Source of the DNA: Caulobacter sp. 602-1
Lineage (GTDB): Bacteria > Pseudomonadota > Alphaproteobacteria > Caulobacterales > Caulobacteraceae
Direction of reading: 5' to 3'
Assembly (NCBI RefSeq): GCF_003931565.1
Contig: NZ_RRYI01000002.1
Location: forward strand, 310,001 to 374,000
DNA: 64,000 bases
The notes below the pieces were generated by a model. That model did not search any database, had not been told where the DNA came from, and was given only the letters and a program-made list of their open reading frames with translations. This document shows positions 3,813 to 52,784 of the stretch, piece by piece. The position numbers and the translations under genes were made by a program. Each line of letters opens with the position of its first letter. The stretch's first letter is position 1.

Positions 3813-3821
3813 GACGCCCCC

Positions 3822-23956: not shown

Positions 23957-24721
23957 TTAGATCGCCGACCTTCTCGCCAGCTCGGTTCGCCGAGCCGCGA
24001 CTTCGTTCCGCGCCCGTTCCAGCGCGTCGATCTCGGTCGCGGTCAGCAGGTTGTCGATCACTCGGCCCAGGTGCTCGCGCATGGCGTTGCGGGCGGCGGT
24101 GGGGTCGCGTTGCTTCAGGGCCCGCAGGATCTCCTGATGGTCGTCGATCAGCGGGCGCACGCCGACCTGGCGGGCGCGCTCCAGCATGGCGCGGCACAGG
24201 GGCGACTTGTAGCGCAGGTCCCAGAGGTTCTCGACGACGGTGACCAGGGCGCTGTTGCGGCTGGCCTGGGCGATGGTCACGTGGAAGCGGCGGTCGGCGC
24301 GCTCGCCGCCGCGCGGGTCGCTGTCGTTCTCCACGACCATGTCGTCCATGATCGTCGCCAGCTCGGCCAGTTCCTCGTCGGTGATGGTGGCGGCGGCCAG
24401 GGCCGCGACCTCGCCCTCGATCAGGCGGCGGGCCTCGGTCAGCTCGAAGGCGCCGATGTCCAGTTCGGGTGCGGTGACCTCGGCGCGCGGGGCTTCGGTG
24501 ACATAGACGCCCGAGCCGTGGCGGGCCTCGACCAGGCCGCGGATTTCCAGGGCGATCATCGCCTCGCGGACGGTCGGACGGCTGACCTTGTAGTCTTCCG
24601 CCAGATCCCGCTCGGACGGCAGGCGCTGGCCAGGGCGGTGCGTGCCGTCGCGAATCGAGTCGGCGATCGAGTTGGCCACCTGTTGGTAGAGCTTGCGGGT
24701 TTCTGCCGTCGAAGTGGTCAT
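23957..24721 (-). CDS. GntR-family regulator, FadR subfamily (FCD domain)
   Basis: The 254-residue regulator has an N-terminal winged helix (~8-78: LPSERDLAEDYKVSRPTVREAMIALEIRGLVEARHGSGVYV) and a C-terminal all-helical FCD domain (~100-235). The FCD metal-site residues are visible in the RRFHVTIAQ and DDHQEILRALKQRD blocks. It is divergent from mannonate dehydratase with a near-palindromic operator between them, so it is probably a repressor of uronate genes released by a sugar acid, as UxuR/ExuR-type proteins are. A half-copy of the operator, AAGTGGTCA (24712-24720), overlaps its own start codon, hinting at autoregulation, although that stretch is coding sequence. Confidence 0.93.
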   Translation of the reverse strand: MTTSTAETRKLYQQVANSIADSIRDGTHRPGQRLPSERDLAEDYKVSRPTVREAMIALEIRGLVEARHGSGVYVTEAPRAEVTAPELDIGAFELTEARRLIEGEVAALAAATITDEELAELATIMDDMVVENDSDPRGGERADRRFHVTIAQASRNSALVTVVENLWDLRYKSPLCRAMLERARQVGVRPLIDDHQEILRALKQRDPTAARNAMREHLGRVIDNLLTATEIDALERARNEVAARRTELARRSAI

Positions 24722-24851
24722 GTGTTTTCGCTGATCGAGCCGACGCGGCGTCGGCGCGCGCCTAGCCTATTGTATGGCCGATGTTCGCGCTACCGGGCTT
24801 GAGGGCGATGGAAGGGCGCGGTCACTAGCTTCTTGTCGGATAAGTCGCTAG

Positions 24852-24869
24852 AAGTGGTCAGGCCACTTT
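24852..24869. promoter_or_regulatory. GntR/FadR-type operator in front of manD
   Basis: AAGTGGTCAGGCCACTTT is an imperfect palindrome (AAGTGG and CCACTT arms around TCAGG) with the TGGTC..xCCA form of UxuR/PdhR-type sites. It ends 27 bp before the manD start, a position where bound protein would block transcription. The same 18 bases recur exactly at 36889-36906 before the beta-glucuronidase gene. Confidence 0.75.
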
Positions 24870-24896
24870 AAGGCCCCGCTTAGCTATTCCAGGTCC

Positions 24897-26108
24897 ATGC
24901 TGAAGATCATCGACGCCAAGGTCATCGTCACCTGCCCCGGCCGCAACTTCGTGACGCTGAAGATCACGACCGAGGACGGGGTCACCGGGGTCGGCGACGC
25001 CACCCTGAACGGGCGCGAACTGTCGGTGGTGGGCTTCCTGCAGGATCACATGATCCCCAGCCTGATCGGCCGCGACGCCCACCAGATCGAGGACATCTGG
25101 CAGTTCTTCTATCGCGGCTCGTACTGGCGCGGCGGTCCGGTGGCCATGACCGCCCTGGCGGCCGTCGACATGGCTCTGTGGGACATCAAGGGCAAGGTCG
25201 CGGGTCTGCCGGTCTATCAGCTGCTGGGCGGCGCGTGCCGCACCGGCGTCACCGTCTACGGCCACGCCAACGGCGAGACCATCGACGAGACCATCGCCGA
25301 GGCGGTGAAGTACAAGGCCATGGGCTACAAGGCCATTCGCCTGCAGACGGGCGTGCCCGGCCTGCCCAGCACCTACGGCGTCTCCGGCGACAAGATGTTC
25401 TACGAGCCGGCCGACGGCAACCTGCCCACCGAGAACCTGTGGTCGACCGCCAAGTACCTGAACCACGTGCCGAAACTGTTCGAGAAGGCGCGTGAGGTCC
25501 TGGGCTGGGACGTCCACCTGCTGCACGACGTCCACCATCGCCTGACCCCGATCGAGGCCGCCCGCCTGGGCAAGGACCTGGAGCCCTATCGCCTGTTCTG
25601 GCTGGAGGACTCGGTCCCGGCCGAGAACCAGGCCGGCTTCCGCCTGATCCGCCAGCACACCACTACGCCGCTGGCCGTCGGCGAAATCTTCGCTCACGTC
25701 TGGGACTGCAAGCAACTGATCGAGGAGCAATTGATCGACTATCTGCGCGCGACCGTGCTGCACGCGGGCGGGATCAGCAATCTGAAGAAGATCGCCGCCT
25801 TCGCCGACCTGCACCACGTCAAGACCGGCTGCCACGGCGCTACCGATCTGTCGCCGATCACCATGGCCGCGGCCCTGCATTTCGACATGTCGATCCCGAA
25901 CTTCGGCCTGCAGGAATACATGCGCCACACGCCGGAGACGGACGCCGTGTTCCCGCACGCCTATACCTTCGATGACGGCATGCTGCACCCGGGCGACAAG
26001 CCGGGCCTGGGCGTCGACATCGACGAGGATCTGGCCGGAAAGTACGAATACAAGCGCGCCTACCTGCCGGTGAACCGTCTTCAGGACGGGACCATGTTCA
26101 ACTGGTAA
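24897..26108 (+). CDS. manD: D-mannonate dehydratase (enolase superfamily ManD)
   Basis: The 403-residue cytoplasmic enzyme dehydrates D-mannonate to 2-keto-3-deoxygluconate. It is colinear with the enolase-superfamily ManD proteins described from Novosphingobium and Caulobacter. The capping domain (~1-125) contains [13 protein letters not shown]. The barrel contains RLQTGVPG and STYG (catalytic Arg/Tyr loop) and LLHDVHH (metal Asp plus His). [12 protein letters not shown] and AVGEIF supply the next two metal glutamates, and [11 protein letters not shown] and PNFGLQEYM follow. The ATG at 24897 has CAGG 4 bp upstream and an operator just before it. Divergent from its probable regulator, it links glucuronide breakdown to the KDG node that the alginate pathway also enters. 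Confidence 0.95.
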
Positions 26109-26442
26109 GGCCACTCGTTGCGCGGCCTCTTCCGCCGCCGGCGGCGGTGCTTGTGGTCGCTGGTGCAGAGGCCTTCGTCGTCGATTCAAAATCTATGACG
26201 CCGCCGGTAGCGCGTATCGAGTACTTCGTATTTATCATGTATTTCGATGGTTTATAGAAATCGCCGACACATGAATGTCGGGTTCACGACTTATGTTTAT
26301 TTTTCCACTTGGCTGTATTTGCTCGATATCCCCAAATCGGGGTGTTAAGCTCTAGTCATCATCGGCACGGTCCTCTCGAGCGCCGATGACCGAGAGACGA
26401 AGCCCAGGCTTCACTCCCGCTCGAAAGGCAGGAGTTCACATC
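26109..26442. other. 334-bp AT-rich intergenic region after manD
   Basis: No gene is visible. A CCGCCGCCGGCGGCGG palindrome near 26130 may serve as a terminator for manD without a T-run. The stretch 26170-26340 is AT-rich and contains CCCC-AAAT-CGGGG near 26331. An 8-bp hairpin (26359-26366 with 26382-26389) ends 53 bp before the next start codon and could be a 5' leader structure. Confidence 0.5.
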
Positions 26443-26700
26443 ATGCCGACGTACCTCTTCTACCCACGGCGCGCCGACGGCGTGTCCCTGACCTTCATCG
26501 CCAACACCGCCGAGGGCGATGTCGACGCCCTGGAACTGGCGGCCGAGGTCGCGGCGGCGCACGACTGCGTCGGTGTCTTCGTCTGGGAATCGGCCGCCGC
26601 GGCGGACGGCAAGGACCGCTTCGTGGGCGAGGTCGCGCGGCGCGGCGCCCAGGCTCTGCATCAGCCGATGCCGCGGCGCGGAGCTTCCGCGGCGGTCTAA
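26443..26700 (+). CDS. small conserved-looking hypothetical protein
   Basis: The 85-residue protein is not assigned to a family. The ATG at 26443 has AGGAG 8 bp upstream. Composition is typical coding sequence for this genome: alternating hydrophobic strands (TYLFYPRR, VSLTFIANT), an acidic helix (DVDALELAAEVAAAH), a strand ending in FVWES and a basic tail. There is no signal peptide or membrane helix, so it is probably a small soluble alpha/beta protein. It lies 33 bp before the permease-like gene and may be co-transcribed. Codon use and the ribosome site support it over the antisense frame on the other strand. Confidence 0.65.
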   Translation: MPTYLFYPRRADGVSLTFIANTAEGDVDALELAAEVAAAHDCVGVFVWESAAAADGKDRFVGEVARRGAQALHQPMPRRGASAAV

Positions 26701-26733
26701 GCGTTACCGGGGCGATCGCAAGGAGATCGTCTC

Positions 26734-27258
26734 GTGGACAAGCTGTTCGCCAAATTCGCCAACGTCACGGCCCGTGCCACGGGCAGTCCGCCCGCGTTCC
26801 TGATTTGCGTCGCCCTCGTGGTGCTGTGGGCGGTGACGGGGCCGATCTTCAAGTTCTCCGAGACCTGGCAGCTGGTGATCAACACCGGCACGACGATCAT
26901 CACCTTCCTGATGGTGTTCCTGATCCAGAATACGCAGAACCGCGACGGCCTGGCCTTGCAGACCAAGCTTGACGAGCTGATCCGCGCCACCACCGAGGCC
27001 GAGGACGACTTCATCGGCATCGAGAAGCTGACCGACAAGGAACTCGAGGTGATGCACGCCCACTGCAAGCAGCGGGCGGACAGGCACGTGCGGGCCTTCC
27101 AGAAGCTGGCGGCCGAGAGGGACGCCCGTCTCAAGGCCCGGCCCAAGAGCAAGGGCGCCGCCAAATCCGCCAAGACGGCGCCGTCCGCCTCGACCCGCGC
27201 CGCCAGCCGCGCCAAGGCCCTGTCGGCCGGTCATCCGTCCCGGAAGAAGGCCGGGTGA
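26734..27258 (+). CDS. low-affinity iron permease family protein (PF04120)
   Basis: The 174-residue membrane protein has two close transmembrane helices (~20-38 and ~48-66; CVALVVLWAVTGPIF and TTIITFLMVFLIQNTQNRD). The FLIQNTQNRD signature continues into an amphipathic stretch ALQTKLDELIRATTEAEDDFIGIEKLT, as in the low-affinity Fe/Cu permease family. Actual metal transport by bacterial members is poorly established. The C-terminal ~40 residues are Lys/Ala/Ser-rich and look disordered. It starts at GTG (26734) with a good AAGGAG upstream. Confidence 0.85.
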   Translation: MDKLFAKFANVTARATGSPPAFLICVALVVLWAVTGPIFKFSETWQLVINTGTTIITFLMVFLIQNTQNRDGLALQTKLDELIRATTEAEDDFIGIEKLTDKELEVMHAHCKQRADRHVRAFQKLAAERDARLKARPKSKGAAKSAKTAPSASTRAASRAKALSAGHPSRKKAG

Positions 27259-27352
27259 TATCAGACCACGACAGGGTGGACGTCAGATCTTATCGGCGAT
27301 AGCGGTACCATTTAATGGGCCGGCTTGAGCGCGCCCAACGGGGAGAGCCGCC

Positions 27353-28627
27353 TTGCCGAAATTGAAAGCCCTGCGCTGGTGGATCATCGGCCTGGTCATG
27401 CTGGGCGCGATCGTCAACTACCTGACCCGCTCGACCATGGGCATCGCCGCCCCGACGGTGATGAAGGACCTGGATATCTCCGTGAAGGAGTATTCCTGGA
27501 TCACGGGCGCCTTCCAGCTGGGGATCATGCTGCAGCCGGTCTGCGGCTATGTGCTCGACACCCTGGGCCTGCGCACAGGCTTCGCGGTCTTCGCGGCGGC
27601 CTGGTCGCTGATCGCCATGGCCCATGGCCTGGTTCATAACTGGCAGGGTTTCGCCTTCCTGCGCGCCTTCCTGGGCCTGGCCGAGGGTTCGGCCCAGCCG
27701 GCCGGCATGAAGACGGTGGCGACCTGGTTTCCGGCGAGGGAGCGGGGCTTCGCCGGCGCGGTGTTCAACATCGGCGCCTCGATCGGTTCGGTTCTGGCGC
27801 CGCCGCTGGTGGTGTGGGCCGTGCTGGCCTGGAACTGGCGAGCGGCCTTCGTATTGACCGGCGCCTTCGGCCTGGTCTGGGTGGTGCTGTGGCTCTTCTT
27901 CTACCGCTCGCCCGAGCGGCACCCGTCGATGACCGACGAGGAGCGCGCGCTGATCGCCACGGGCCAGGAAGCGCACCTGACCGCCACCGGAGCCAAGCCG
28001 TCGATCATCTCGATCCTGAAGCAGGGCCAGTTCTGGGGCATCGCCCTGCCGCGCTTCCTGGCCGATCCGACCTGGGGGACGCTGTCGTTCTGGGTGCCGC
28101 TCTATCTGTCGCAGACCCGCGGCTTCGACCTCAAGCAGATCGCCCTGTTCGCCTGGATGCCGTTCGTGGCCGCCGACCTGGGCTGCCTGGCTGGGCCGGT
28201 GATCGCGCACTTCCTGCAGAAGCGCGGTGTTTCGCTGATCAACGCCCGTCGCATCGCCTTCACCCTGGGCGCGGTCCTGATGACGGGCATGGTGTTCGTC
28301 GGCAAGGTCGAGAGCGCCTACGCGGCCATCGCGCTGCTCTGCCTGGGCGGCTTCGCGCACCAGACCCTGTCGGTGACCGTCATCACCATGGCCTCCGACC
28401 TCTTTCGCCGTGACGAGGTCGCCACGGTGGCGGGCCTGGCCGGCATGATGGGCAATCTGGGTCTGCTGCTGTTCTCGCTGCTGATCGGCGGGCTGGTGAC
28501 GACGATCGGCTATGACCCGTTCTTCGTGGCCCTGGGCGTGCTGGACATCGCCGGGGCCGTTCTGCTGTGGACGCTCGTCAAGGACCGCGCCGCGCCAAAT
28601 GGAACATCCGAGACGGTAAAAGCATGA
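27353..28627 (+). CDS. MFS transporter, anion:cation symporter type (hexuronate-like)
   Basis: The 424-residue inner-membrane protein has twelve predicted helices and matches the ACS branch of the MFS (ExuT/GudP relatives): WWIIGLVMLGAIVNYLTRSTMGIAAP in TM1 and the loop after it, ARERGFAGAVFNIGASIGSVLAPPLVVW in TM5. The family usually imports hexuronates, aldarates or related acids with H+. It starts at TTG (27353) with GGGAGAG 6 bp upstream. Its stop overlaps the GH43 gene start as ATGA, so the two are translationally coupled; this suggests it imports a xylosyl-uronate oligosaccharide product or its uronate part. A half-site resembling the manD operator (CAGACCAC, ~27262) lies upstream. Confidence 0.88.
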   Translation: MPKLKALRWWIIGLVMLGAIVNYLTRSTMGIAAPTVMKDLDISVKEYSWITGAFQLGIMLQPVCGYVLDTLGLRTGFAVFAAAWSLIAMAHGLVHNWQGFAFLRAFLGLAEGSAQPAGMKTVATWFPARERGFAGAVFNIGASIGSVLAPPLVVWAVLAWNWRAAFVLTGAFGLVWVVLWLFFYRSPERHPSMTDEERALIATGQEAHLTATGAKPSIISILKQGQFWGIALPRFLADPTWGTLSFWVPLYLSQTRGFDLKQIALFAWMPFVAADLGCLAGPVIAHFLQKRGVSLINARRIAFTLGAVLMTGMVFVGKVESAYAAIALLCLGGFAHQTLSVTVITMASDLFRRDEVATVAGLAGMMGNLGLLLFSLLIGGLVTTIGYDPFFVALGVLDIAGAVLLWTLVKDRAAPNGTSETVKA

Positions 28628-30255
28628 GCGTGATTTCCAATCCCATCCTGCGCGGCTTCAATCCCGACCCGTCGATCGTCCGGGTGGGGCGGGACTACTA
28701 TGTCGCCACCTCGACCTTCGAGTGGTTCCCGGGCGTCCAGATCCACCACTCGCGCGACCTCAAGAACTGGCGCTTGCTGGGCCGGCCGCTGACCCGTCCG
28801 AGCCAGCTGGACATGCGCGGCGACCCCGACGGCTGTGGGGTCTGGGCGCCGTGCCTGACCCACGCCGACGGCAAGTTCTGGCTGATCTTCACCGACGTGA
28901 AGCGATACGGCCGGACCACGGTCGGCGGGGCGTCCGGCGCCAGTTTGCGCGACTTCCACAACTACCTGGTCACGGCCGACACGATCGACGGCGCGTGGTC
29001 GGATCCCATCCATCTGAACAGCTCGGGCTTCGATCCGTCGCTGTTCCACGACGACGACGGCCGCAAATGGCTGGTCAATCAGCTGTGGGATCACCGTCCG
29101 GGCAAGAACCGCTTCGCCGGCATCGTGCTGCAGGAATATTCGGTCGCCGAGCGGAAGCTGGTCGGCGAGCGCAAGGTGATCTTCCAGGGCACGCCGATCG
29201 GCCTGACCGAGGCTCCGCACCTCTACAAGCGCGACGGCTGGTACTACCTGGTCACTGCCGAGGGCGGCACCGGCTGGGGTCACGCCATGACCATGGCAAG
29301 ATCGCGCGACCTCGCCGGTCCGTATGAACTGCACCCCGACACCTACGTCCTGACCTCCCGCGACCGGCCGCATGTGGCGCTGCAACGCGCGGGCCACGCG
29401 GATCTGGTCGAGACCGCCGACGGGGAGACCTACGCGGCCTATCTGATCGGCCGGCCGATTCCCAATCGGGGCCGCTGCACGCTCGGGCGCGAGACGGCGA
29501 TCCAGAAGCTGGTCTGGGGCGAGGACGGCTGGCCGCGCACGCTGGACGGCTCGGGCGATCCGACGCTGGAGACCCCGGCGCCGGACCTGCCCGAGCAGCT
29601 TTGGCCTGCGGCGCCAACGCGCGCGAGCTTTGACGGTCCAGACCTGCCGATCGACTTCCAATGGCTGCGCACGCCCTATCCGGACGAGATCTTCAGCCTG
29701 ACCGCCAGGCCCGGCTTCTTGCGCCTCTACGGCCGCGAGAGCGTGGGCAGCGTCTTCCGCCAAGCCCTGGTCGCCCGACGCCAGCAGGCCCACTGCTACT
29801 CGGCCGCCACGGTGCTGGACTTCGAGCCCGAGCACTTCCAGCAGGCCGCGGGGCTGATCTGCTACTACAACGGCTCCAAGCTGCACTATCTGCATGTCAG
29901 CCACGACGACGCGATCGGCAAGCATCTGCGGGTGATGAGCTGCAGTCCCGACAGCCCGCAGTCGGACAGCTTCACCGCGCCCATCCCGCTGGCCGCCGGC
30001 CCGGTCGAGCTGCGCGTCGAGGTCGACTTCGAGCGCTTGCGGTTCGGATTCCGGCAGGGCGAGGGCGCCTGGGCCTGGCTGCCGGAGGTGTTCGACGCCT
30101 CGATCCTGTCCGATGAGGCCAGCGCCCCTGGCGCGCCCAACTTCACCGGCGCCTTCGTCGGCATGGCCTGCCAGGACGTCTCCGGCGCCGCCGCGCCGGC
30201 CGACTTCGACTGGTTCGACTATGAGGAACGGGCGTACCGGCCCCAGAATTTGTGA
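28624..30255 (+). CDS. glycoside hydrolase family 43 beta-xylosidase-like
   Basis: The 543-residue enzyme has no signal peptide and probably works in the cytoplasm. A five-bladed propeller domain (~1-310) shows the GH43 triad contexts: FNPDPSI near residue 10 (general base Asp), GFDPSLFHDDDG (~135) and TEAPHLYK (~200, acid Glu). A C-terminal beta-sandwich (~350-540; SVFRQALVARRQQAHCYSA, HFQQAAGLICYYNG) is typical of XynB-type beta-xylosidases. I chose the ATG at 28624, which overlaps the transporter stop by 4 bp, as the protein then begins directly at the first propeller strand. It likely removes xylose (or arabinose) from imported oligosaccharides. Confidence 0.92.
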   Translation: MSVISNPILRGFNPDPSIVRVGRDYYVATSTFEWFPGVQIHHSRDLKNWRLLGRPLTRPSQLDMRGDPDGCGVWAPCLTHADGKFWLIFTDVKRYGRTTVGGASGASLRDFHNYLVTADTIDGAWSDPIHLNSSGFDPSLFHDDDGRKWLVNQLWDHRPGKNRFAGIVLQEYSVAERKLVGERKVIFQGTPIGLTEAPHLYKRDGWYYLVTAEGGTGWGHAMTMARSRDLAGPYELHPDTYVLTSRDRPHVALQRAGHADLVETADGETYAAYLIGRPIPNRGRCTLGRETAIQKLVWGEDGWPRTLDGSGDPTLETPAPDLPEQLWPAAPTRASFDGPDLPIDFQWLRTPYPDEIFSLTARPGFLRLYGRESVGSVFRQALVARRQQAHCYSAATVLDFEPEHFQQAAGLICYYNGSKLHYLHVSHDDAIGKHLRVMSCSPDSPQSDSFTAPIPLAAGPVELRVEVDFERLRFGFRQGEGAWAWLPEVFDASILSDEASAPGAPNFTGAFVGMACQDVSGAAAPADFDWFDYEERAYRPQNL

Positions 30256-30308
30256 ATTGAGAGATCGGCGTTCAATCGTAGGGTTCTGGAAAGTCCAGGG
30301 AGGACGCC

Positions 30309-31196
30309 ATGAACGCTCCGGTCTCGATCTCCGAACACGACGCGGCTCCCCATGCCGGCCTGACCATCAAGCCCGTCGGCACGGTGCTGGGAGCGGAGAT
30401 CTCGGGGCTCGACCTGACGCGGCCACTGAGCCCCGAGATCGTCGCGGCGATCCGCGCGGCCCTGCTGCGCCACAAGGTGGTGTTCTTCCGCGACCAGGAC
30501 ATTTCCTACGAGGATCACGTCCGCTTTGGCCGGTACTTTGGCGAGCTGGAGGGCCATCCGGTCACCGCCCATGTGCCGGGCTTTCCGGAGATCCTGCACA
30601 TCGAGGCGGCCGACGGCATGAAGCTGCGCGAGGAGATCGTCCCGATCGTCCGCGCCGCCAACAAGTGGCACACCGACGTCACCTTCCGCGAGGCGCCGTC
30701 GATGGGCGGGGTGCTACGGATGCGGCGCATGCCGCCCCTGGGCGGCGACACCCTGTTCGCCGACACGGCCGCCATCTATGCCGACCTGCCCCAGGCGTTG
30801 AAGGACAAACTGGCGACCCTCACGGCCGAGCACGACATCATCCAGAGCTACGGCTACCGCGTCGACGAGGCCAAGCGTCAGGCGTTGCGCGCGGAGTATC
30901 CGCCGATGATCCACCCGGTGGTTCGCATCCATCCGGAGACCGGCGAGAAGCACCTGTTCGTCAACAAGGTCTTCACAACCCGGATCCTGGGCCTGCCTGA
31001 GGACGAGGCCAAGACGCTGCTGGCCGACCTGCTGGACCGGGTGAAATCGCCCGAATATCAGGTCCGCTTCCGCTGGACTCCGAACGCCATCGTCTTCTGG
31101 GACAACCGCGCGACGCAGCACTACGCGGTCCTCGACTACTGGCCCCAGGAGCGGATCGTCGAGCGCGTGACGATCAAGGGCGACAAGCCGTTCTAG
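30309..31196 (+). CDS. TauD/TfdA-family Fe(II)/2-oxoglutarate dioxygenase
   Basis: The 295-residue cytoplasmic enzyme carries the facial triad: His and Asp in KWHTDVTF (~120) and the distal His in NRATQHYAVLDY (~270). The 2-oxoglutarate-binding Arg lies in the RIVERVTIKGD tail. Relatives hydroxylate taurine, alkyl sulfates or phenoxyacetates, so the product may free sulfite or an aldehyde; the substrate is not clear here. The ATG at 30309 has AGGGAGG upstream. It lies 53 bp after the xylosidase gene on the same strand, so it may be in the same transcript, although its chemistry has no obvious link to xyloside use. It ends one base before the convergent response-regulator gene. Confidence 0.9.
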   Translation: MNAPVSISEHDAAPHAGLTIKPVGTVLGAEISGLDLTRPLSPEIVAAIRAALLRHKVVFFRDQDISYEDHVRFGRYFGELEGHPVTAHVPGFPEILHIEAADGMKLREEIVPIVRAANKWHTDVTFREAPSMGGVLRMRRMPPLGGDTLFADTAAIYADLPQALKDKLATLTAEHDIIQSYGYRVDEAKRQALRAEYPPMIHPVVRIHPETGEKHLFVNKVFTTRILGLPEDEAKTLLADLLDRVKSPEYQVRFRWTPNAIVFWDNRATQHYAVLDYWPQERIVERVTIKGDKPF

Positions 31197-31565
31197 TCAG
31201 CCAATCAAAGCCCGGTTCAGGCAGTCGATGAGCCTCTCGCCGGTGAAGGGCTTGGGCAGGAAGCAGGTCACGCCCGCCCTTTCGGCCCGGAGCCTCTGGG
31301 CGTCGTCGGCGAAGGCGGTGATCAGGATGACCGGGGTGTTCTCGCCGGCGGCGATCATGGCCTCCTTCATCTCGACGCCGGTCATGCCCGGCATCTGCAG
31401 GTCGCTGATCACGCAGTCGGCCCGACCGCGCGCGGCCGAGGCCATAAACGCCGTGGCGCTGTCGAACCCCTCGACGCGATGACCCAGGGATCGCAGCAGC
31501 CCCTCCAGCGAGACGCGGACCGAGTCGTCGTCGTCGACGACACAGATGAGGGGGGAGGGGGACAA
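31197..31565 (-). CDS. single-domain response regulator (receiver only)
   Basis: The 122-residue CheY-like receiver domain shows acidic cluster DDDD at 11-14, phospho-acceptor D55 in ISDLQMPGMTG, Thr in ILITAFADD (~83) and K105 in FLPKPF. There is no output domain, so it would act as a phosphate sink or through protein contact. Its sequence is closest in style to FixJ-type receivers. It starts at TTG (31565) with GAGGAAG upstream. It lies next to a full FixJ-type regulator and a PAS kinase, so the three probably form one phosphorelay. Confidence 0.92.
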   Translation of the reverse strand: MSPSPLICVVDDDDSVRVSLEGLLRSLGHRVEGFDSATAFMASAARGRADCVISDLQMPGMTGVEMKEAMIAAGENTPVILITAFADDAQRLRAERAGVTCFLPKPFTGERLIDCLNRALIG

Positions 31566-31684
31566 GCGGGCTTCCTCGAACGCGCGACGGCGGGTCGCGC
31601 CACGATCAGTGCCCGATAACCGCGGTCGCGGAAATTATACGGAGGTTTGTGTGCTCTTGCGTGAGGATCGTTCAAGACGGTCCG

Positions 31685-32308
31685 TCACGCGGGGTCTTCG
31701 GGCCGCAGCTTGAGCATCTCGGCCATGCGGACCAGATCCGCCAGGCTCCGGGCCTCCATCTTCCGCATCAGGTTGCCGCGATGGATCTTCACGGTGATCT
31801 CGGACAAGCCCAGCTGATGGGCGGCCTGCTTGTTCATCAGCCCGCTGGCCACAAGGGCCATGACCTGCTTCTCACGCCCGCTCAGCGTCTCGTAGAGGGC
31901 GCGCAGGTCGTCGAGGCCGCCCTGCTGGGCGCGGGCGGTCGCATCGCGCTCCAGGGCCGCGGCGACCGCGTCCAGCATGTCCTGATCGCGGAAGGGCTTG
32001 GTCAGGAAGTCGACGGCCCCGGCCTTCATGCCGCGCACGCTCATCGGGATGTCGCCATGGCCGGTCATCAGCACGATGGGCATGCGGATGTCGGCGGCGG
32101 CCAGCTTCTCTTGGAAATCCAGGCCGGAGAGGCCCGGGAGGCGCACGTCCAGCACCAGGCAGCCGGCGTCGTGAGCGTGGCCCGACTGCAGGAACTCCTG
32201 GGCGTTGCCGAACGCCTTGGTCTCCAGTCCGACCGAGCGGAACAGACTGTCCAGGGCCTCGCGCAGGGCGCCGTCATCATCGACGATATGGACTGTTTGG
32301 GTGACCAT
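31685..32308 (-). CDS. FixJ-family response regulator (receiver + LuxR HTH)
   Basis: The 207-residue regulator has a receiver with D54 (LVLDVRLPG) and K104 (FLTKPF), and a C-terminal LuxR-type helix-turn-helix (~138-200: LSGREKQVMALVASGLMNKQAAHQLGLSEITVKIHRGNLMRKM). The ATG at 32308 starts the protein at its first beta strand; the reading frame stays open far upstream, antisense to the kinase gene, but that extension is not protein-like. It is divergent from the histidine kinase with 63 bp between start codons, the usual layout for a cognate pair with a shared promoter region. Confidence 0.95.
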   Translation of the reverse strand: MVTQTVHIVDDDGALREALDSLFRSVGLETKAFGNAQEFLQSGHAHDAGCLVLDVRLPGLSGLDFQEKLAAADIRMPIVLMTGHGDIPMSVRGMKAGAVDFLTKPFRDQDMLDAVAAALERDATARAQQGGLDDLRALYETLSGREKQVMALVASGLMNKQAAHQLGLSEITVKIHRGNLMRKMEARSLADLVRMAEMLKLRPEDPA

Positions 32309-32371
32309 CGTTCTCGTTAGCTGGACCAGACGCGCGGCCTCGTCAATTATGCAATCGGAGATGGGGGCCGC

Positions 32372-33946
32372 ATGATCACCGAAGACGTCGACCGCCGGCG
32401 CCAGGACCTGGCCGAGATGCTGGACGCGGCGCATGACGCCATCTTCGTCAGCGATCTGGAGGGTCGGATCACCTTCTGGAACCGCGGCGCCGCGGCGCTG
32501 TACGGCCACGCGCGCGAGACGGCCATGGGCGGGGATCCCGACGTCTTGCTCGCCACGCGGTATCCGGCCGAGATCGCGGCGATCAAGGCTCAGCTGATCG
32601 AGACCGGCCACTGGGAGGGCGAGTTGACCCGGACCACGGCCGCCGGCGAGACGGTGGTCGTCGACGGCCGCTGGACCCTGCGTCGCGACGCGGCCGGGAC
32701 GCCGATCGAGGTGTTGGAGACTGGCCGCGACGTCACCGCCGCCCGCAAGGCGGCGCTGGATCTGAAATACAGCGAGTATCGCTACAGCAACGTCTTTCGG
32801 GCCATGGCGGTGTCGTTCTGGGAGCTGGACTTCAACGACCTGGGCGAGGTGCTGGCCGACCTGCAGGCCAAGGGCATGACCGACGTCCGCGCCTATGTCG
32901 CCGAGCATCCCGAGGTGATCCGGCGGATGATCGAGGTCTCGAGGGTGGTCGACGTCAACGACAAGTCCGTCGCCCTGTTCGGCGCGCCGCGAGAGGACCT
33001 GCTGGGCTCTGTGTCGCGGTTCTGGCCTCGGTCCAGCGAAAGGGTGTTCGCCGAGAGCGTCTTCGCGGCCCTGGAGCGCCGGCACAGCTACGAGGCCGAG
33101 GCGCGGTTCTGCAAGGCCGACGGGACGGAGTTCGACGCCCTCTTCACCACCTGCTACCCGCGCGACGGGGTCAAGCGCGGCACGGTGCTGGTCGGCATCG
33201 TCGACATCAGCGACCGACTGGCAGCGCAAGACGCCCTGCGCAAGGCCGAGGCGGACCTAGCCCACGCCGCCCGGGTCTCGACCCTGGGCGAACTGACCGC
33301 CTCGATCGCCCACGAGGTCAACCAGCCTCTGGCCGCCATCGTCACCAACGGCGAGGCGGGTCTGCGCTGGATCAACCGCGCCGAGCCCGACCTGGAAGAG
33401 GCCCGCGCGGCGATGGGGCGGATGATCGTCGAGGGGCAGCGCGCCTCGGACATCATCAGCCGCATCCGGGCCCTGGCCTCGAACAAGGATCCGCAGCGCG
33501 CGCCGGTGGCGCTGAACGCGGCGATCGAGGACGCCGCGCTGCTGCTGAAGCGCGAACTGGCGGCGCACGACGTGCGGCTGATCCTGGCCCTGTCGCCGGA
33601 CGTGGGCGAGGTCCTGGGCGACCGGGTGCAGCTGCAGCAGGTGGTCATCAACCTGGCCATGAACGGCATTCAGGCCATGGCGGGACGCGACGGCGCGCGC
33701 GATCTGACTCTCTCCACGCGGCGCGCGGACGATCGGGTCGTGCTGGAGGTGGCCGATACGGGCCCCGGCGTGGCGGCGCGGAACGCGCAAGTCCTTTTCA
33801 AGGCCTTCCATTCGACCAAGGCGACGGGGATGGGCATGGGCCTGTCGATCAGCAAGTCGATCGTCGAGGCGCATGGCGGCGTCATCGCCGCGGAGACCGC
33901 GCAGGATGGTGGGGCCTTGTTCCGGGTGGTCCTGCCCGCGGCCTAG
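32372..33946 (+). CDS. PAS-domain sensor histidine kinase (FixL-like architecture)
   Basis: This 524-residue kinase has no membrane helix and is probably cytoplasmic. A first PAS domain (~12-130; HDAIFVSDLEGRITFWNRGAAAL) is followed by a second, atypical PAS-like domain with a helical insertion (~140-290; FRAMAVSFWELDFNDLGEVLADLQ). The HisKA has H314 in SIAHEVNQPLAAI, and the HATPase shows N box VVINLAMNGIQAM and G boxes DTGPGV and GMGMGLSISKSIV. It is the probable partner of the divergent FixJ-type regulator. I cannot identify a heme-binding histidine, so oxygen sensing should not be assumed. The ATG has GGAG upstream. Confidence 0.94.
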   Translation: MITEDVDRRRQDLAEMLDAAHDAIFVSDLEGRITFWNRGAAALYGHARETAMGGDPDVLLATRYPAEIAAIKAQLIETGHWEGELTRTTAAGETVVVDGRWTLRRDAAGTPIEVLETGRDVTAARKAALDLKYSEYRYSNVFRAMAVSFWELDFNDLGEVLADLQAKGMTDVRAYVAEHPEVIRRMIEVSRVVDVNDKSVALFGAPREDLLGSVSRFWPRSSERVFAESVFAALERRHSYEAEARFCKADGTEFDALFTTCYPRDGVKRGTVLVGIVDISDRLAAQDALRKAEADLAHAARVSTLGELTASIAHEVNQPLAAIVTNGEAGLRWINRAEPDLEEARAAMGRMIVEGQRASDIISRIRALASNKDPQRAPVALNAAIEDAALLLKRELAAHDVRLILALSPDVGEVLGDRVQLQQVVINLAMNGIQAMAGRDGARDLTLSTRRADDRVVLEVADTGPGVAARNAQVLFKAFHSTKATGMGMGLSISKSIVEAHGGVIAAETAQDGGALFRVVLPAA

Positions 33947-34040
33947 AGAGCCGGGATCAACGGGAACGTGCGCGATGATGGTCGGCCCACGGTCCCGGCG
34001 TTGTCGTCAGGGGCGAGACCCAACGGGGAGCCCTTAAATG

Positions 34041-34080
34041 AAGCCGGCTGGTCTCGCGCGAGGCGTGGCCAGCCGGCTTT
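34041..34080. terminator. hairpin between kinase and AraC regulator genes
   Basis: A perfect 11-bp stem (34041-34051 with 34069-34079) with a 17-nt GC-rich loop lies between converging genes. It has short T/A runs on both sides (TTTAAAA on one, CATTTAAG on the other), so it may work in both directions. Confidence 0.55.
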
Positions 34081-34203
34081 AAAAGGTGTCGGACGCGGTG
34101 GGGTGCGCCGAGTCCGAGGACCTTCGTCGAGTCCCGAGCGAATGGCAACGGTCTAGGTTGCCGAATGTGTGCGACAAACGGGCGCAGTCGATTGCATGGA
34201 CGC

Positions 34204-34785
34204 TCAGGCGCGCCCGTAGTGGGCTCGGCGCCAGGCCAGGGGCGTCGCGCCGGCCAGCTTCCGGAAGGTTCGCGAGAAGTGGGCCTGGTCGGCGAAGCCG
34301 CACAGATAGGCGATCTGGCTGAGCGGTTCGGCGCTCTTGAGCATCATCGCCTTGGCTGTCTCGACCCGTCGGCGCATGACATGACCGTGCGGGGTGTCGC
34401 CGAAGGTCTGCTTGAAGGCGCGGCTGAAGTGGCCGGCGCTCAGTGTGACCAGCTGGGCCAGGTGCGAGACCGGGATGGTGTCGCCGAGGTGGGCGTCGAT
34501 GTGGGCGCTGACCCGCTTAGCCTGCCAGGGGGCGAGACCGCCCAGGCTGACCTCGCGCGTTCGACCTTGCGTCTCGACCGCCTCGGCGATCATCGCGTTG
34601 GCTCGAGCCAGCAGGGCGCGGGTGGCGTCCAGGTCGCCGCCGATCGAGCGTTCGGCGCGGGCCAGTATGTCTTTCAGGCTCGGCGCGAACGCGCGGACCT
34701 CATCGTCCAGGATCTGGCCGGCGACCACGCCGTCGAAGGGATTGGAGGCGGTGTCGAAGCTGCGGGCGGCGGGTTGATAGGACAT
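34204..34785 (-). CDS. AraC-family transcriptional regulator
   Basis: The 193-residue protein has two helix-turn-helix motifs at the C-terminus (~95-190: IPVSHLAQLVTLSAGHFSRAFKQTFGDTPHGHVMRRRVETAKAMML and PLSQIAYLCGFADQAHFSRTFRKLAGATPLAWRR). The N-terminal ~90 residues are helical and do not look like a cupin sugar-binding domain, so it may respond to a partner or be constitutive. The ATG at 34785 has GGAGA upstream; earlier in-frame starts (up to 34869) add a poorly ordered tail. It lies 158 bp downstream of the beta-glucuronidase gene on the same strand. Confidence 0.88.
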   Translation of the reverse strand: MSYQPAARSFDTASNPFDGVVAGQILDDEVRAFAPSLKDILARAERSIGGDLDATRALLARANAMIAEAVETQGRTREVSLGGLAPWQAKRVSAHIDAHLGDTIPVSHLAQLVTLSAGHFSRAFKQTFGDTPHGHVMRRRVETAKAMMLKSAEPLSQIAYLCGFADQAHFSRTFRKLAGATPLAWRRAHYGRA

Positions 34786-34943
34786 GGCGTCGATCTCCGT
34801 TGCGCCCCTTGGGGAGAGGGGCTCCGTGTTTCGACGATCAGTGTTCTTCATCCCCGCTTCGGGGACCATTCAACCAAGGCTTGGCCAGGACCTGCGTTGG
34901 TCTGTCGCACCTATACCTGAGTATGGCCGCGCGGCCGTCTGGC

Positions 34944-36815
34944 CTACTGCCCTGCTTCCTTCTGTCGGTAGAAGTCTCGCAGCACGAAGAACGCCGGTTT
35001 GCGCCGTCCCGTCGGCGAGACCAGTCCCTTACGGTTCCAGCCTTGCTGATAGATCGGATGCTGACGCCTGGGGCTGCGGAAGTCCTTGAGGATCCAGGGC
35101 GACATGCCGCGCAGGGTCGAGGCCTTGGCGGCCATGGCCAGGGTCTTCTCGTAGTACTTCTTCTGAAAGTCTTCGGAGAACTTGCGCATCAGCACAGGGT
35201 CGCTGAAGCCGGACAGGGCGTCGGCGCCGAATTCGGAGAACACCATCGGCTTGTCGGTGGCCTTCCAGGTCATGGCCGGCAGGCTGTCGAGCGTGTCGTC
35301 GCTGTACCAGCCGTTGTAGGTGTTGGCGGCCAGGACATCGAGCTTGTCGGCCAGCGGGTCGTTGAGGCCCATCTCGACTTGCTTGCCGTTTGGGCCGTCA
35401 TTGGTCTTGCGCGCCGTCAGCAGGGCGGCGGTGACCAGGCGGCTGTCGTCCAGCGCCCGGACGTCGTCGACCAACTGGTAGAGGAAGGCGTTGCGCGGTT
35501 CGGTGATCGGCGTCTCGTTGGCCACGCTCCACATGATGATCGAGGCGCGGTTGCGGTCGCGGCGGATATTGTCGGCCAGCATGTCCCGCGCCAGTTTCAG
35601 GGTGCGCGGATTGCCGAAGTCGACCAGCCAGTAGACGGGGATTTCGCTCCACACCAGCAGGCCCATCTCGTCGGCGATGCGGGTGGTGATCTCGCTGTGC
35701 GGATAGTGGGCGAGGCGCACGAAGTTGCCGTGCAGGCCCTCCTTCACCTCCGAGAGCAGGGCGCGGGCGCCGGCCTCGGTGATGGTCCGGGCCGGGTTGT
35801 CGCCGAACTCCTCCTCATGGACCGAGACGCCGCGCAGGAAAATCGGCTTGCCGTTCAGCAGGATCTCGCTGCCCTTGGTCTCGATCGTGCGGAAGCCGAC
35901 ACGGTCGGTCAGCTTGTCCTCGCCCGTCTGGACGACGACGTCATAGAGCTTGGGCTTCTCGGGCGACCAGCGAACCAGGCCCTTGGGCGCGGCGATCGAG
36001 GCGTTGAGCACGCCCTGGGGGTCTGTCTTGCCGGTGACGTCGAGGCCCAGCTCGGCGACGCGGACATGGACCTCCTGGTTGGCGGCCTGGGCCCCGTCCA
36101 GCTTCACGGTGGCGGCGATCTTTCCGTCCTTGGTCAGGCGCAGCCAAGCCTCGTCGACGAAGGTGCCGGGGGTGATGACCAGGCGCATCGGCCGGGTGAT
36201 CCCGCCATAGTTCTCCCAGTCGGTAACCGGCGGCGGCACGCCGTCGGTCTGGGGTGTGGAGTCGACGCCGACCGTGATCTGGTTGTTGCTGGCCCGCAAG
36301 GTCTCGGTGACCTCCATCGAGAACGGCGTGAAGCCGCCCTCGTGCTCGCCGACAGCCTTGCCGTTCAGGAAGACCTTGGCGGTGTAATTGACCGCCTCGA
36401 AGCGCAGGAAGGCGCGTTGGCCGGGCTTCAGCGCCGGGGCGTCGAAGCGCCGCTCGTACCACATCAGACCCTGGTAGTAGCGCAGGCTCGGATCGTGCCC
36501 GACCCAGCCCTGGGGCAGGGTGGCCGTGGGCGAGCGGTCCATGTCGTATTCGTAGAGGGCGTTGGGCCTGGACTTGGTCACGGCGTCGACATCGACGTCG
36601 TCATAGCGGCGGTGACCCTCGCCGGGCGCGCCGCGGTGGAAGCCGGCTAGGCCGTCGCGATAGGGATCGACCGAGTAATGCCAGGTCCCCGAGAGATCCT
36701 GGCCGTCGCGATTCTCGGCCCGGGTCAGAGTGGGGGAGGAGGCCGACGCGCCCAGCGGCGCCAGCAGGGCCAGAGCGCACGCCGCGGCGACCAGAGCCTT
36801 CAATCCCGTTCCCAT
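34944..36815 (-). CDS. secreted glycoside hydrolase family 2 beta-glucuronidase
   Basis: The 623-residue GH2 enzyme has a signal peptide (~1-26, LGASAS) and then the sugar-binding, immunoglobulin-like and TIM-barrel domains. The acid/base is E434 in MWSVANE and the nucleophile E528 in VFSEFGADAL. The NxK motif (N594, K596 in WNRKG), close to the C-terminus, is the pair that in beta-glucuronidases contacts the sugar carboxylate and separates them from beta-galactosidases. It should release glucuronate from glucuronides in the periplasm. I chose the ATG at 36815, with GGAGGAAC 6 bp upstream. A copy of the manD operator lies 73 bp before it. The upstream TBDR has its own terminator. Confidence 0.93.
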   Translation of the reverse strand: MGTGLKALVAAACALALLAPLGASASSPTLTRAENRDGQDLSGTWHYSVDPYRDGLAGFHRGAPGEGHRRYDDVDVDAVTKSRPNALYEYDMDRSPTATLPQGWVGHDPSLRYYQGLMWYERRFDAPALKPGQRAFLRFEAVNYTAKVFLNGKAVGEHEGGFTPFSMEVTETLRASNNQITVGVDSTPQTDGVPPPVTDWENYGGITRPMRLVITPGTFVDEAWLRLTKDGKIAATVKLDGAQAANQEVHVRVAELGLDVTGKTDPQGVLNASIAAPKGLVRWSPEKPKLYDVVVQTGEDKLTDRVGFRTIETKGSEILLNGKPIFLRGVSVHEEEFGDNPARTITEAGARALLSEVKEGLHGNFVRLAHYPHSEITTRIADEMGLLVWSEIPVYWLVDFGNPRTLKLARDMLADNIRRDRNRASIIMWSVANETPITEPRNAFLYQLVDDVRALDDSRLVTAALLTARKTNDGPNGKQVEMGLNDPLADKLDVLAANTYNGWYSDDTLDSLPAMTWKATDKPMVFSEFGADALSGFSDPVLMRKFSEDFQKKYYEKTLAMAAKASTLRGMSPWILKDFRSPRRQHPIYQQGWNRKGLVSPTGRRKPAFFVLRDFYRQKEAGQ

Positions 36816-36888
36816 CACGCGTTCCTCCAGCAGCCGTTCGGCTTTGTCGCAGAGGTTGAAGCATGGCCCGCGGCCAGGGCGCAAGGAA

Positions 36889-36906
36889 AAGTGGTCAGGC
36901 CACTTT
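36889..36906. promoter_or_regulatory. second, identical copy of the manD-type operator, before the beta-glucuronidase gene
   Basis: These 18 bases are identical to 24852-24869. They lie in the 146-bp gap between the TBDR terminator and the beta-glucuronidase start, 73 bp before the ATG. An exact 18-bp match at two uronate genes 12 kb apart, both intergenic, is unlikely by chance. Confidence 0.75.
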
Positions 36907-36910
36907 GCGT

Positions 36911-36948
36911 AAAGAAAAGGGCGGCCAGGTCCTCGGACCCGGCCGCCC
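36911..36948 (-). terminator. intrinsic terminator after the TBDR at 36962
   Basis: On the minus strand a 14-bp stem with one G-T pair (36948-36935 with 36932-36919) is followed by TTTTCTTT. It is 13 bp past the stop codon. Confidence 0.9.
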
Positions 36949-36961
36949 TCGTCGGATCGGC

Positions 36962-39463
36962 TTAGAAGCTCTTGCGAACCGTCAGGCCGTAGGTGCGCGG
37001 CGCGTTCGGATAGCCGCTATAGCTGCCGTCCTGGGCCACCGTCGGGAAGGCCGAGATCAGGCTTTCGTCGTTGGTCAGGTTACGGGCCCACAGGCCGATT
37101 TCCAGTTGGCCGGCGGTCTGGATCACGCCGACGCTGGCGTTGACGACATCGGTGCCGTAGCTGGCCAGGGCCGGCGACACGGTTTCCGTCAGCTGAACCT
37201 TGCTGCTGTGGTCGTATTCCACGCGCGCATAGCCCTGCCAGTTCTCGGAGATGTCGTGGTTGATCGTCGCCGAGGTCGAGAACGACCACTTGGCGATGCC
37301 GGCCGGGGTGTCGCCCGTCAGATTGCGGAAGTTCGGACGACGGCCGGTGGTCGGGTCGACCGGACAGCGAACCGTGTCGTAAGCCACGCAGGCCGCGCCG
37401 GTGAAGCTGTCATACTTCGGATCGAGATAGGTGACCGAAGCGGCCAGGTTCAGCCATTGCACCGGACGCCAGGCGCTGTCGACTTCGAAGCCCTTCACCG
37501 ACTCCTCGCCGGCGTTGACCAGGCTGTAGCCGAGGCCGGTGAAGGCGTTGGACTGGAAGCCCTTGATCGACTGCTTGAAGGCCGCGATGTTGGCGTAGCC
37601 GCCCGGGAAGCTGGCCTTCACGCCCAGTTCGTAGACGTCGACGTTTTCCGGCTGGGCGGTGCGGCCCACGCCGTTGGCGTTCGGCGGACGGCTGTCGGAC
37701 GACAGGTTGAAGGCGCCGGCCTTCCAGCCCGTGGAGTAGCTGGCATAGGCGTTGATCGCGCCGAAGTCATAAGCCGCGCGAACGGCGTAGGTGACCTTGT
37801 CGCCCTTCAGTCGGCCGGACTCGGCGGCGTTCGGATAGTTGACCGGGCCGTGGGTCGGGTCGTTGCCGTAGAAGAACTGCAGGGCGCCGAGGGCGCTATA
37901 CAGGTTGCCCGGCAGACCCAGGGCGGGGAACTGCGGCACGGCGCCCAGGTTCAGCGAAGAGAATGGGTCGTTCAGGGCGACGTTCGAACGGGCCTTCTTC
38001 GTGTCGTTCATGTAGGCGAGGCCGCCGGTCAGGGTCAGCTTTTCGGTGACCTTGTAGTCGAACTGGCTGAACAGCGAGTACGACTCCTGCTTCATCTTGT
38101 AATAGTCGTTGATGCCTTGGCCGGGCTGGAAGTAGGTCAAGCCGGGGCGCACCAGCGTGGGCGTCGCCAGGCTCTGCAGGAATTCCAGGGCGTACAGGTT
38201 CGACCGGCCGGTCAGGGCCGGGCGGAGCGTGGCGGGCAGGGCGCCCAGCAGCGCCGCCGGAACCGGGCCCGACAGGGCTTCGGCGAACGCGCGGATGTCG
38301 TTGCCGTAGGTGACGGTGCGGCCGGTATCCAGCTTTTCATTCTGGTAGAAGCCGCCGATCAGCCAGTTGAGCGGACCATCGCTGTTCGACGCCAGGCGCA
38401 CTTCTTGGGTGAAGGTCTTGATGGTGTTGGCGGTGCGGTTGTTGGAGATGTCCGCGCCGGTGAAGTCGATGTCCTGGAACGAGGCGTTCTTCTGGTTCCG
38501 GTAGGCCGTGATCGCGGTCAGCTTTGCGAAGCCGAGGTCATGGTCGAGCTGGCCCGAAACGCCCTTGCCCGACAGCTTGTTCTCGGGGTCGGTGTTGAAG
38601 ATGACGTCGCGGTCGAAGATCTTGGTGGTGTCGCTGATCGGCTTCTTCAGCAAGCCGCCGATGGCGAGGGTGGCCGGACCGTTGTAGATCGAGGTCACGC
38701 CGCAGCAGGTCTCGTTGATCTTGTTGTAGTCGGCGATGACGCGGAACGAGGTCTTGTCGGTCGGTTCCCACAGCATGTCGCCGCGGATCGACCAGCGATC
38801 GCGGTCGTTGACGTCGTTGCCGGTCGTCGTGTTGGTGAAGAAGCCGTCGCGCTTGTTCAGGCTGCCCGAAAGGCGGACCGCGAGGGTCTCGCTGAGCGGG
38901 CCGGTGATCGTGCCCTTGATCTGGCGGGCGTTGTAGTTGCCGTAGGTGCCTTCGACCTTACCGCCGAACTCGAACTGCGGCTTCTTGGTCACGATGCTGA
39001 TCGCGCCGGCCGACACGTTCTTGCCGAACAGGGTCGATTGCGGGCCGCGCAGAACCTCGACGCGCTCGATCTCGGGCAGGTCGTCCAGGGCGGCGGCGGA
39101 GCGGCTGCGATAGACGCCGTCGATGAAGATGCCGACCGAGCTTTCAATGCCGTCGTTGCCGTTGCCATTGCCGAAGCCGCGGATGACGAAGTTGGTCTGG
39201 CCCGCGGCGTTGAATTGCTGGACCTTCAGCGACGGAACGACCGACTGCAGGTCGATCAGGTCGCGGACCTGGGCCCGTTCGATGGTTTGCTGACCCGTGA
39301 CGGCGACCGAGATCGGCACGTCCTGCAGAGTCTGTTCGCGCTTGGTGGCGGTGACGACGATTTCGGCGATCGAGTTGCTGTCAGCCTGGGTGGTTTGCGC
39401 GTAGGCGGGCGCCGCGATGGCGAGCGCGAGGGCCGAGACCCCTAGCATGTGGACGTTTCTCAT
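36962..39463 (-). CDS. TonB-dependent receptor (sphingomonad-type)
   Basis: The 833-residue receptor has a signal peptide (~1-23, AAPAYAQ), the TonB box AEIVVTATKR, a plug with QTLQDVPISVAVTG, NFVIRGFGNGNGNDG and RVEVLRGPQSTLFGKNVSAGAISIVTKKP, and a barrel ending LTVRKSF. This subgroup is common in sphingomonads and caulobacters, with varied ligands. I chose the ATG at 39463 with GGGAG 7 bp upstream; an extended frame adds a Lys/Glu-rich tail before the signal peptide. It is terminated before the beta-glucuronidase gene and divergent from a TetR regulator, so the TetR protein is the likelier controller. Confidence 0.92.
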   Translation of the reverse strand: MRNVHMLGVSALALAIAAPAYAQTTQADSNSIAEIVVTATKREQTLQDVPISVAVTGQQTIERAQVRDLIDLQSVVPSLKVQQFNAAGQTNFVIRGFGNGNGNDGIESSVGIFIDGVYRSRSAAALDDLPEIERVEVLRGPQSTLFGKNVSAGAISIVTKKPQFEFGGKVEGTYGNYNARQIKGTITGPLSETLAVRLSGSLNKRDGFFTNTTTGNDVNDRDRWSIRGDMLWEPTDKTSFRVIADYNKINETCCGVTSIYNGPATLAIGGLLKKPISDTTKIFDRDVIFNTDPENKLSGKGVSGQLDHDLGFAKLTAITAYRNQKNASFQDIDFTGADISNNRTANTIKTFTQEVRLASNSDGPLNWLIGGFYQNEKLDTGRTVTYGNDIRAFAEALSGPVPAALLGALPATLRPALTGRSNLYALEFLQSLATPTLVRPGLTYFQPGQGINDYYKMKQESYSLFSQFDYKVTEKLTLTGGLAYMNDTKKARSNVALNDPFSSLNLGAVPQFPALGLPGNLYSALGALQFFYGNDPTHGPVNYPNAAESGRLKGDKVTYAVRAAYDFGAINAYASYSTGWKAGAFNLSSDSRPPNANGVGRTAQPENVDVYELGVKASFPGGYANIAAFKQSIKGFQSNAFTGLGYSLVNAGEESVKGFEVDSAWRPVQWLNLAASVTYLDPKYDSFTGAACVAYDTVRCPVDPTTGRRPNFRNLTGDTPAGIAKWSFSTSATINHDISENWQGYARVEYDHSSKVQLTETVSPALASYGTDVVNASVGVIQTAGQLEIGLWARNLTNDESLISAFPTVAQDGSYSGYPNAPRTYGLTVRKSF

Positions 39464-39714
39464 AACGAACTCCCTGTTTTTCTTTATTATCGGCCGCTTT
39501 TCTTCCCATCCCGCCTCGAGCAATCGCGGATTTATTTTGGGGAAGAGCGGGCGTGTTGACGTGAGGGAAGGGCGATCCTGGCCGACCGCGCGAACCGCAG
39601 AGAGCGGTCACGAGCCCTTGGCCTAGGATGAAGACGCTTTGCGTCATGTTTCCGCCCCAGCGCGAACGGCTTGCATCCGTCCGCAACTGACGCTGATTTT
39701 AATATGACCTCGAT

Positions 39715-44572: not shown

Positions 44573-44655
44573 CGGCCGATGCTCCGCTGCCTCTCGTCCG
44601 GATCGTCCTGAGACGACTCGGATTTCCCAACTCGGGCTGACATTGGATGGTTCTA

Positions 44656-44686
44656 TCAGGGGTGAACCAAAGCGGTATACCCCTGA
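44656..44686. promoter_or_regulatory. inverted repeat with a GntR-type motif upstream of the alginate gntR gene
   Basis: TCAGGGGT (44656-44663) and ACCCCTGA (44679-44686) are perfect inverted repeats. The minus strand of the spacer reads TTTGGTTCACCCC, close to TTTGGTTGACCCCC at the alginate TBDR promoter (48083-48096). It may be the operator of this gntR gene, a terminator for the TBDR ending at 44697, or both. Confidence 0.45.
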
Positions 44687-44696
44687 CAGCCAAAGC

Positions 44697-48035: not shown

Positions 48036-48068
48036 AGTTCTCATCCTCCCCGAATACCAATTTTCTAA

Positions 48069-48096
48069 ATTTGGCTTACCTATTTGGTTGACCCCC
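48069..48096. promoter_or_regulatory. GntR-type motif pair, TBDR side of the alginate divergon
   Basis: TTGGCTTACC (48071-48080), then TTGGTTGAC (48084-48092). The segment TTTGGTTGACCCCCTGA resembles the minus strand at 44656-44686. It is 34 bp upstream of the TBDR start, over the likely promoter. The whole divergent gap (48036-48419) holds no gene. Confidence 0.55.
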
Positions 48097-50606: not shown

Positions 50607-50613
50607 GCCAGCC

Positions 50614-52776: not shown

Positions 52777-52784
52777 GGCGCGAG

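Follow-up and report, generated by a model that had tools for sequence, protein, structure and literature searches.

Does an 18-bp sequence that stands, letter for letter, before two genes of uronate breakdown 12 kb apart in Caulobacter sp. 602-1 serve as an operator, and which regulator would use it? The window, meaning the whole stretch analysed, is 64,000 nucleotides of contig NZ_RRYI01000002.1 (positions 310,001 to 374,000, forward strand; assembly GCF_003931565.1). The 18-mer AAGTGGTCAGGCCACTTT is likely to be the operator of ExuR/UxuR-type repressors of the FadR subfamily of GntR proteins, and is probably shared by paralogues. Exact copies lie at 24852-24869 (operator 1, plus strand) and 36889-36906 (operator 2, plus strand), 27 bp before the ATG of manD at 24897 and 73 bp before the ATG of a minus-strand GH2 gene at 36815, respectively; both copies are intergenic when coding frames are picked by codon-position GC content. 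The positions, gaps and intergenic placement reported in a first-pass annotation of the window are thus all borne out. The only other window match at up to three mismatches is the opposite-strand reading of the second site, shifted by one base, and the mean number of matches expected in the window is 0.02 (100 shuffles).

Both target genes and the candidate regulator gene encode recognizable proteins. manD (manD1; 24897..26108, plus strand) encodes a D-mannonate dehydratase of the enolase superfamily, with 730 bits against the NCBIfam model NF043051 (cut-off 550) and a near-full-length match to the PDB chain 3vcn (899 bits); by sequence comparison its identity as ManD is secure. Divergent from it lies gntR1 (23957..24721, minus strand), whose product has an N-terminal GntR winged helix and a C-terminal FCD domain (PF00392 and PF07729, both above cut-off), the make-up of the FadR subfamily of the GntR family; its closest named relatives are from Caulobacter. 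The GH2 gene (34944..36815, minus strand; PF02836/PF02837) encodes a predicted uronidase, either a beta-glucuronidase or a beta-galacturonidase, that has an apparent N-terminal signal peptide by eye and is probably exported. Its closest solved chain is PDB 7vqm (AqGalA, 477 bits), deposited as a 'GH2 beta-galacturonate' enzyme and read here as a beta-galacturonidase; the next solved chains are named beta-galactosidase/beta-glucuronidase (456 bits). An N-x-K motif in GWNRKGL near the C terminus aligns with the same motif in 7vqm; in GH2 uronidases this motif reads the uronate carboxylate. In a scan of curated models, which used a longer TTG-start frame, the protein falls below the cut-offs for UidA (222 of 544 bits) and the LacZ4 type (156 of 950 bits). 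The label beta-glucuronidase given to it earlier is not supported as it stands, with the UidA cut-off failed and the best solved relative of the galacturonidase type. The placing of ManD two steps further on than the uronidase is also amended; ManD is the third enzyme after it.

The evidence for an operator comes mainly from conservation. In a genus sample of 75 genomes, manD1 (counted at at least 84% identity) occurs in 31, and an orthologue of gntR1 (at least 69% identity) is present in every one of these; genome G065, with a partial manD of 83% and a GntR of 65%, was left uncounted. The site is found within 130 bp at 0-4 mismatches in all 30 manD1 loci examined, at 23-38 bp from manD (measured to the match start) in 28 and at 72-77 bp in two; when each upstream region was shuffled 200 times, the observed match was equalled in at most 1 of the 200. 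In three genomes (G027, G045, and G069) manD lies apart from gntR1 and still has the site; in G045 a GH92 gene neighbours the unlinked manD. Loci fetched with gntR1 (L022-L061; the scan omitted the stretch over the gntR1 start codon) give the complementary comparison: of the 23 divergent manD-gntR1 pairs, 22 carry the site with no more than four mismatches (L044 has five), and Caulobacter-type gntR1 loci (at least 74% identity) lacking a neighbouring manD have seven to nine mismatches in six of seven (L046 has four). Since manD-linked loci keep the site and most gntR1 loci lacking manD do not, the site goes with manD.

At the GH2 gene the site is more variable. Among 28 orthologous loci (two of 30 were dropped), it is present in 18 at up to four mismatches, 25 at up to five and 26 at up to six, lying 38-143 bp 5' of the match start. 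Just upstream of operator 2 is a terminator-like hairpin (36917..36950, minus strand; 15-pair stem and T tail), the one hairpin found in a terminator scan with a shuffle mean of 0.3. It follows a TonB-dependent receptor gene (36962..39523, minus strand; PF00593, PF07715) that precedes the GH2 gene on the same strand, and this arrangement suggests that the GH2 gene has a separate promoter. A relative of the receptor also precedes gus in loci L022 and L024. GH2 orthologues seem split in two in L131 (G073), L135 (G070), and L136 (G011), through sequencing error or decay.

Across 31 distinct sites the layout is TGGT-N3-[GA]CCA, its core almost invariant and its outer positions variable. FadR-subfamily sites, that of ExuR included, are described as TKGT/ACMA boxes whose GT and AC stand 3 nt apart (PMC4494728); the first-pass annotation had likened the symmetry of the 18-mer to FadR-family operators, and this stands for the left half and the 3-nt spacing. 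Very probably, the 18-mer is a genuine operator laid out in the FadR/ExuR manner, with binding by such a protein predicted. The site is asymmetric; its orientation is towards manD in 28 of 30 loci and, at the GH2 gene, away from the gene in 25 of 26, with reversals within both groups; the almost invariant core, variable outer positions and opposite orientations fit a DNA-bound dimer and not RNA.

The first-pass annotation had proposed scanning the genome at up to three mismatches and listing the downstream genes, and this was done on the assembly (5.44 Mb, 241 contigs), with reversed patterns as controls for the pattern searches. The scan gave 10 rows, or eight distinct places, against four rows for the control. 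Exact copies occur only before manD1 and the GH2 gene; copies with two mismatches lie before a GH3 gene and ~275 bp before gntR2; and copies with three mismatches lie between manD2 and a GH67 alpha-glucuronidase gene, before kdgA-kdgK, and at two more places, C164:840335 (L007/L108, beside a VOC protein) and C175:615550 (L008/L107, beside another GntR), neither of which has a visible link to uronates. Over the genus, the scan at up to two mismatches gave 90 rows in 30 of the 75 genomes against eight for the reversed pattern. When eight proteins were looked for around 30 best-site loci (one per genome, the locus in the window included), 19 had manD within 350 bp, three had the GH2 gene, and one had kdgA at ~360 bp; in G059 the kdgA site has one mismatch and lies ~360 bp 5' of kdgA. 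G016, G017, G019, and G020 have two sites each, ~195 bp apart, and the paired sites of G019 and G020 (L145 and L146) are near a manD of 77-79% identity.

Two readings would dispense with an operator. One takes the pair of 18-mers for a chance repeat or a dispersed repetitive element, and exact 18-bp repeats are indeed not rare in the window; the genome, however, holds just two exact copies and eight places at up to three mismatches in 5.4 Mb, and the sequence is conserved at similar spacing 5' of orthologous genes. Conservation before orthologous manD1 and GH2 genes marks the site as more than chance, and chance origin, which these counts leave extremely improbable, was rejected. The other reading places the function at the RNA level, the 18-mer forming a hairpin plus T run in the leaders that serves as terminator or attenuator, and the sequence does read as an inverted repeat, with TTT after it on either strand. 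Against this, pair 3-15 is standard in only 18 of the 31 distinct sites, whereas none of the 31 departs from GG, the central A or CC. The orientation reversals within the manD and GH2 groups would hardly be tolerable for an RNA element, no terminator was called at manD, and the GH2 site has a distinct 15-pair hairpin ahead of it. An RNA role is very unlikely, and was rejected on these grounds.

Several observations weigh against a conserved operator or against its link to gntR1. The window contains 19 repeated exact 18-mers, 13 of them accounted for by a halogenase gene pair; 20 first-order Markov simulations averaged 1.05 (0-6). The exact repeat by itself is therefore weak evidence, and conservation was relied on instead. 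The four places with three mismatches in this genome equal the background number (four control rows) and hence carry weight only where conservation backs them. A relaxed palindrome, WWNTGGYCNGRCCANWW, with one mismatch allowed, returned fewer rows (62, at 31 places) than its reversed control (104); since this pattern is not enriched, the places it adds carry weight only if backed by neighbours or conservation, and of nine regions inspected only those of uxuB (L215) and a second alginate lyase (L217) seemed relevant. Seven of the 30 best-site loci have none of the eight proteins nearby (among these, L153 ends behind a ppc-like gene, like the neighbour of kdgA). Six further genomes (G001, G016, G020, G034, G043, and G074) have gntR1 without manD1; six more distant divergent manD-gntR pairs (L066, L068, L071, L077, L078, and L088) lack the site at up to three mismatches, and hold related sequences by eye, such as TTGGCCTTACCAA or TTGGTCAGACCAA, that were not counted; and L048 (GntR 65%, manD not adjacent) has a site with four mismatches. 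Two GH2 orthologues (G046 and G050) lack the site, and that of G001 has it only at six mismatches, which 18 of 200 shuffles matched. Most of the orthologues belong to a single genus, and they are not independent of one another. As to form, the right half-site is mostly GCCA (first base G in 26 of the 31 distinct sites, A in five) and not the usual FadR-type ACCA, a small correction to the earlier comparison with FadR-family operators; moreover, there is no sigma-70-type promoter match near either site. Finally, the gntR1 product is below the NCBIfam cut-offs for ExuR (169.7 of 396 bits, its best model) and UxuR (142.2 of 442 bits).

The regulator is harder to name than the operator. The genome has five clear gntR1 relatives, itself included (100, 59, 55, 51, and 41% identity), followed by weaker ones, and the segments of the proteins of gntR1-4 that we take to be the recognition helices are nearly identical (VSRPTVREAMIALE, VSRPTVRRAVIALE, VSRPTLREAMIALE, and VSRPTIRDAMIALE). 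gntR3 adjoins manD2 and the GH67 alpha-glucuronidase gene. On one reading the GH2 operator belongs to GntR3 and not to GntR1, and the identity of the two 18-mers reflects a DNA preference common to the paralogues instead of a single regulon. Besides the likeness of the helices, co-occurrence favours this: gntR3 (at least 81% identity) is present in all 28 GH2 genomes, and in 46 of the 75 overall, whereas gntR1 is present at 80% or more in 15 of the 28, as a 69-75% relative in five, and not at all in eight, all eight of which keep the site (two mismatches in one, four in one, and five in six). On the other hand, the site has drifted in seven of these eight (four or five mismatches, TATTGGTCAGGCC among them), and for five of the six sites with five mismatches 1 to 5 of 200 shuffles are as good; most of the gntR1-less genomes resemble each other in upstream DNA and seem to form one clade; and the sites between GH67 and manD2 have a slightly different form. 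These intergenic regions, scanned with no shuffle control, contain the site in 28 of 30 loci when six mismatches are allowed and in 23 when five are, as TGGTCWGACCA in 20 of the 28 and as a variant in eight. The chance that the GH2 operator belongs to GntR3 in this way is somewhat short of even. manD1 is best assigned to gntR1, and the GH2 gene is not assignable between gntR1 and gntR3. Of the earlier proposal that the GntR protein at 23957 runs one regulon, the conserved operator common to manD and the GH2 gene and the co-occurrence of manD1 and gntR1 in 31 of 31 genomes survive; sole control by this protein is not supported as stated, given four near-identical recognition helices and eight gntR1-less GH2 genomes, all with the site and with gntR3. 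A sequence weakly resembling the operator, AAGTGGTCATGTGTTTTC (24712..24729, plus strand), spans the gntR1 start codon and is a possible autoregulatory site; it is partly fixed by the coding sequence MTT, and versions with three mismatches occur in seven relatives (L031-L033, L036, L038, L039, and L041).

Control of the rest of the pathway appears divided. Curated cut-offs are passed by UxaC (577.9 of 387 bits), KduD (422.9 of 338.85 bits), and a KDPG/KHG aldolase (376.7 of 275 bits); the product of the gene called uxuB is below the fructuronate reductase cut-off (359.6 of 603 bits). The 18-mer operator is clear at manD1, GH2, and GH67/manD2, and weaker at kdgA-kdgK and uxuB. uxaC has no 18-mer site at up to four mismatches, and LacI-like boxes of the type TGACACCGGTTACC lie before uxaC and uxaA, with a LacI-family regulator gene between the two; we infer that the boxes serve this LacI-family protein and that uxaA-uxuB forms a single unit. 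The box pattern yielded 31 rows in the genome and its control 18, so only boxes beside uronate genes were used. Before kdgA (L105, 8717-8774), an 18-mer-like site, AAGTGGCTTGGCCACTTT, stands between two TGACACCGGTG boxes 44 bp apart, which suggests dual control of kdgA-kdgK. The middle steps (UxaC and UxaA-UxuB) are probably under another regulator. With these boxes at uxaC and uxaA-uxuB and both kinds of site at kdgA-kdgK, the one glucuronate regulon of the first-pass annotation is too simple, though uxuB has a weak 18-mer-like sequence. A fuller version of split control in Caulobacter, in which GntR operators serve the entry and the exit at ManD, LacI-like boxes the middle of the pathway and both kdgA-kdgK, with paralogues competing for one operator, is put forward tentatively, the balance leaning against it. 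The entry targets would be the exported GH2 and the GH67 uronidases and perhaps an alginate lyase, and signals from different polymers would then converge on a common set of sites.

For the operator shared by FadR-subfamily repressors, the starting point is what is observed, namely the sites, their conservation, their neighbours and the paralogues. A GntR dimer would bind the near-palindrome TGGT-CAG-GCCA at the manD promoter and at the GH2 promoter 12 kb away, and would block transcription until a metabolite of the uronate pathway releases it; bound 23-38 bp before the manD start, it could prevent either the initiation of transcription or the early stage of elongation. At manD1 the leading candidate is gntR1; at GH2, gntR3 or both proteins may act. 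The manD and GH2 genes are probably switched on together.

The system is best read as the Caulobacter counterpart of the E. coli ExuR/UxuR regulon and, by analogy, probably works like it. In E. coli, ExuR and UxuR control UidA, UxuA, UxuB, UxaC, and ExuT, and cross-regulate, probably as heterodimers (PMC9369180). Like this system of E. coli and other Gammaproteobacteria, that of Caulobacter has paralogous GntR-family proteins and predicted targets that include a uronidase and a mannonate dehydratase. It differs in having five related GntR proteins, with gntR1 below the ExuR/UxuR cut-offs; in its dehydratase, ManD of the enolase superfamily, UxuA being of a different enzyme family; in the extra targets suggested (GH67, GH3, and alginate lyase); and in uxaC and uxaA-uxuB standing behind LacI-like boxes. 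Within the Alphaproteobacteria, a novel GntR-family UxuR has likewise been predicted for the glucuronate genes UxaC-KDG of Rhodobacteraceae and differs in its link to an ABC transporter operon (PMC5507952). Genus-level carbohydrate regulons have similarly come from comparative genomics for Caulobacter GluR and BglR, which belong to the LacI family, with central carbohydrate and beta-glucoside genes as targets (PMC4052901). No account of the present regulon in Caulobacter was found in the literature searched, where sources were available in part; RegPrecise, which lay outside the search, may hold one. The general picture of hexuronate control from E. coli is unchanged; what is added is a testable regulon prediction for a well-studied genus, which connects the GH2 uronidase with uronate breakdown, together with a compact example of paralogous repressors among which a single operator may be shared.

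Other gene groups were seen in passing. gntR4 and gntR2 flank genes for a GH88-family hydrolase and a 5-keto-4-deoxyuronate isomerase (L102, 8219-12573), perhaps a pectin branch. An alginate-type cluster at 43829-54086 of the window has no copy of the 18-mer at up to three mismatches; it encodes the fifth GntR relative (41% to gntR1), a TonB receptor, an MFS transporter, a chondroitinase-B-type lyase and a heparinase II/III-alginate lyase. At 66-5372 of the window, two tandem tryptophan-halogenase-type genes, with exact repeats between them, lie behind a TonB receptor barrel gene.

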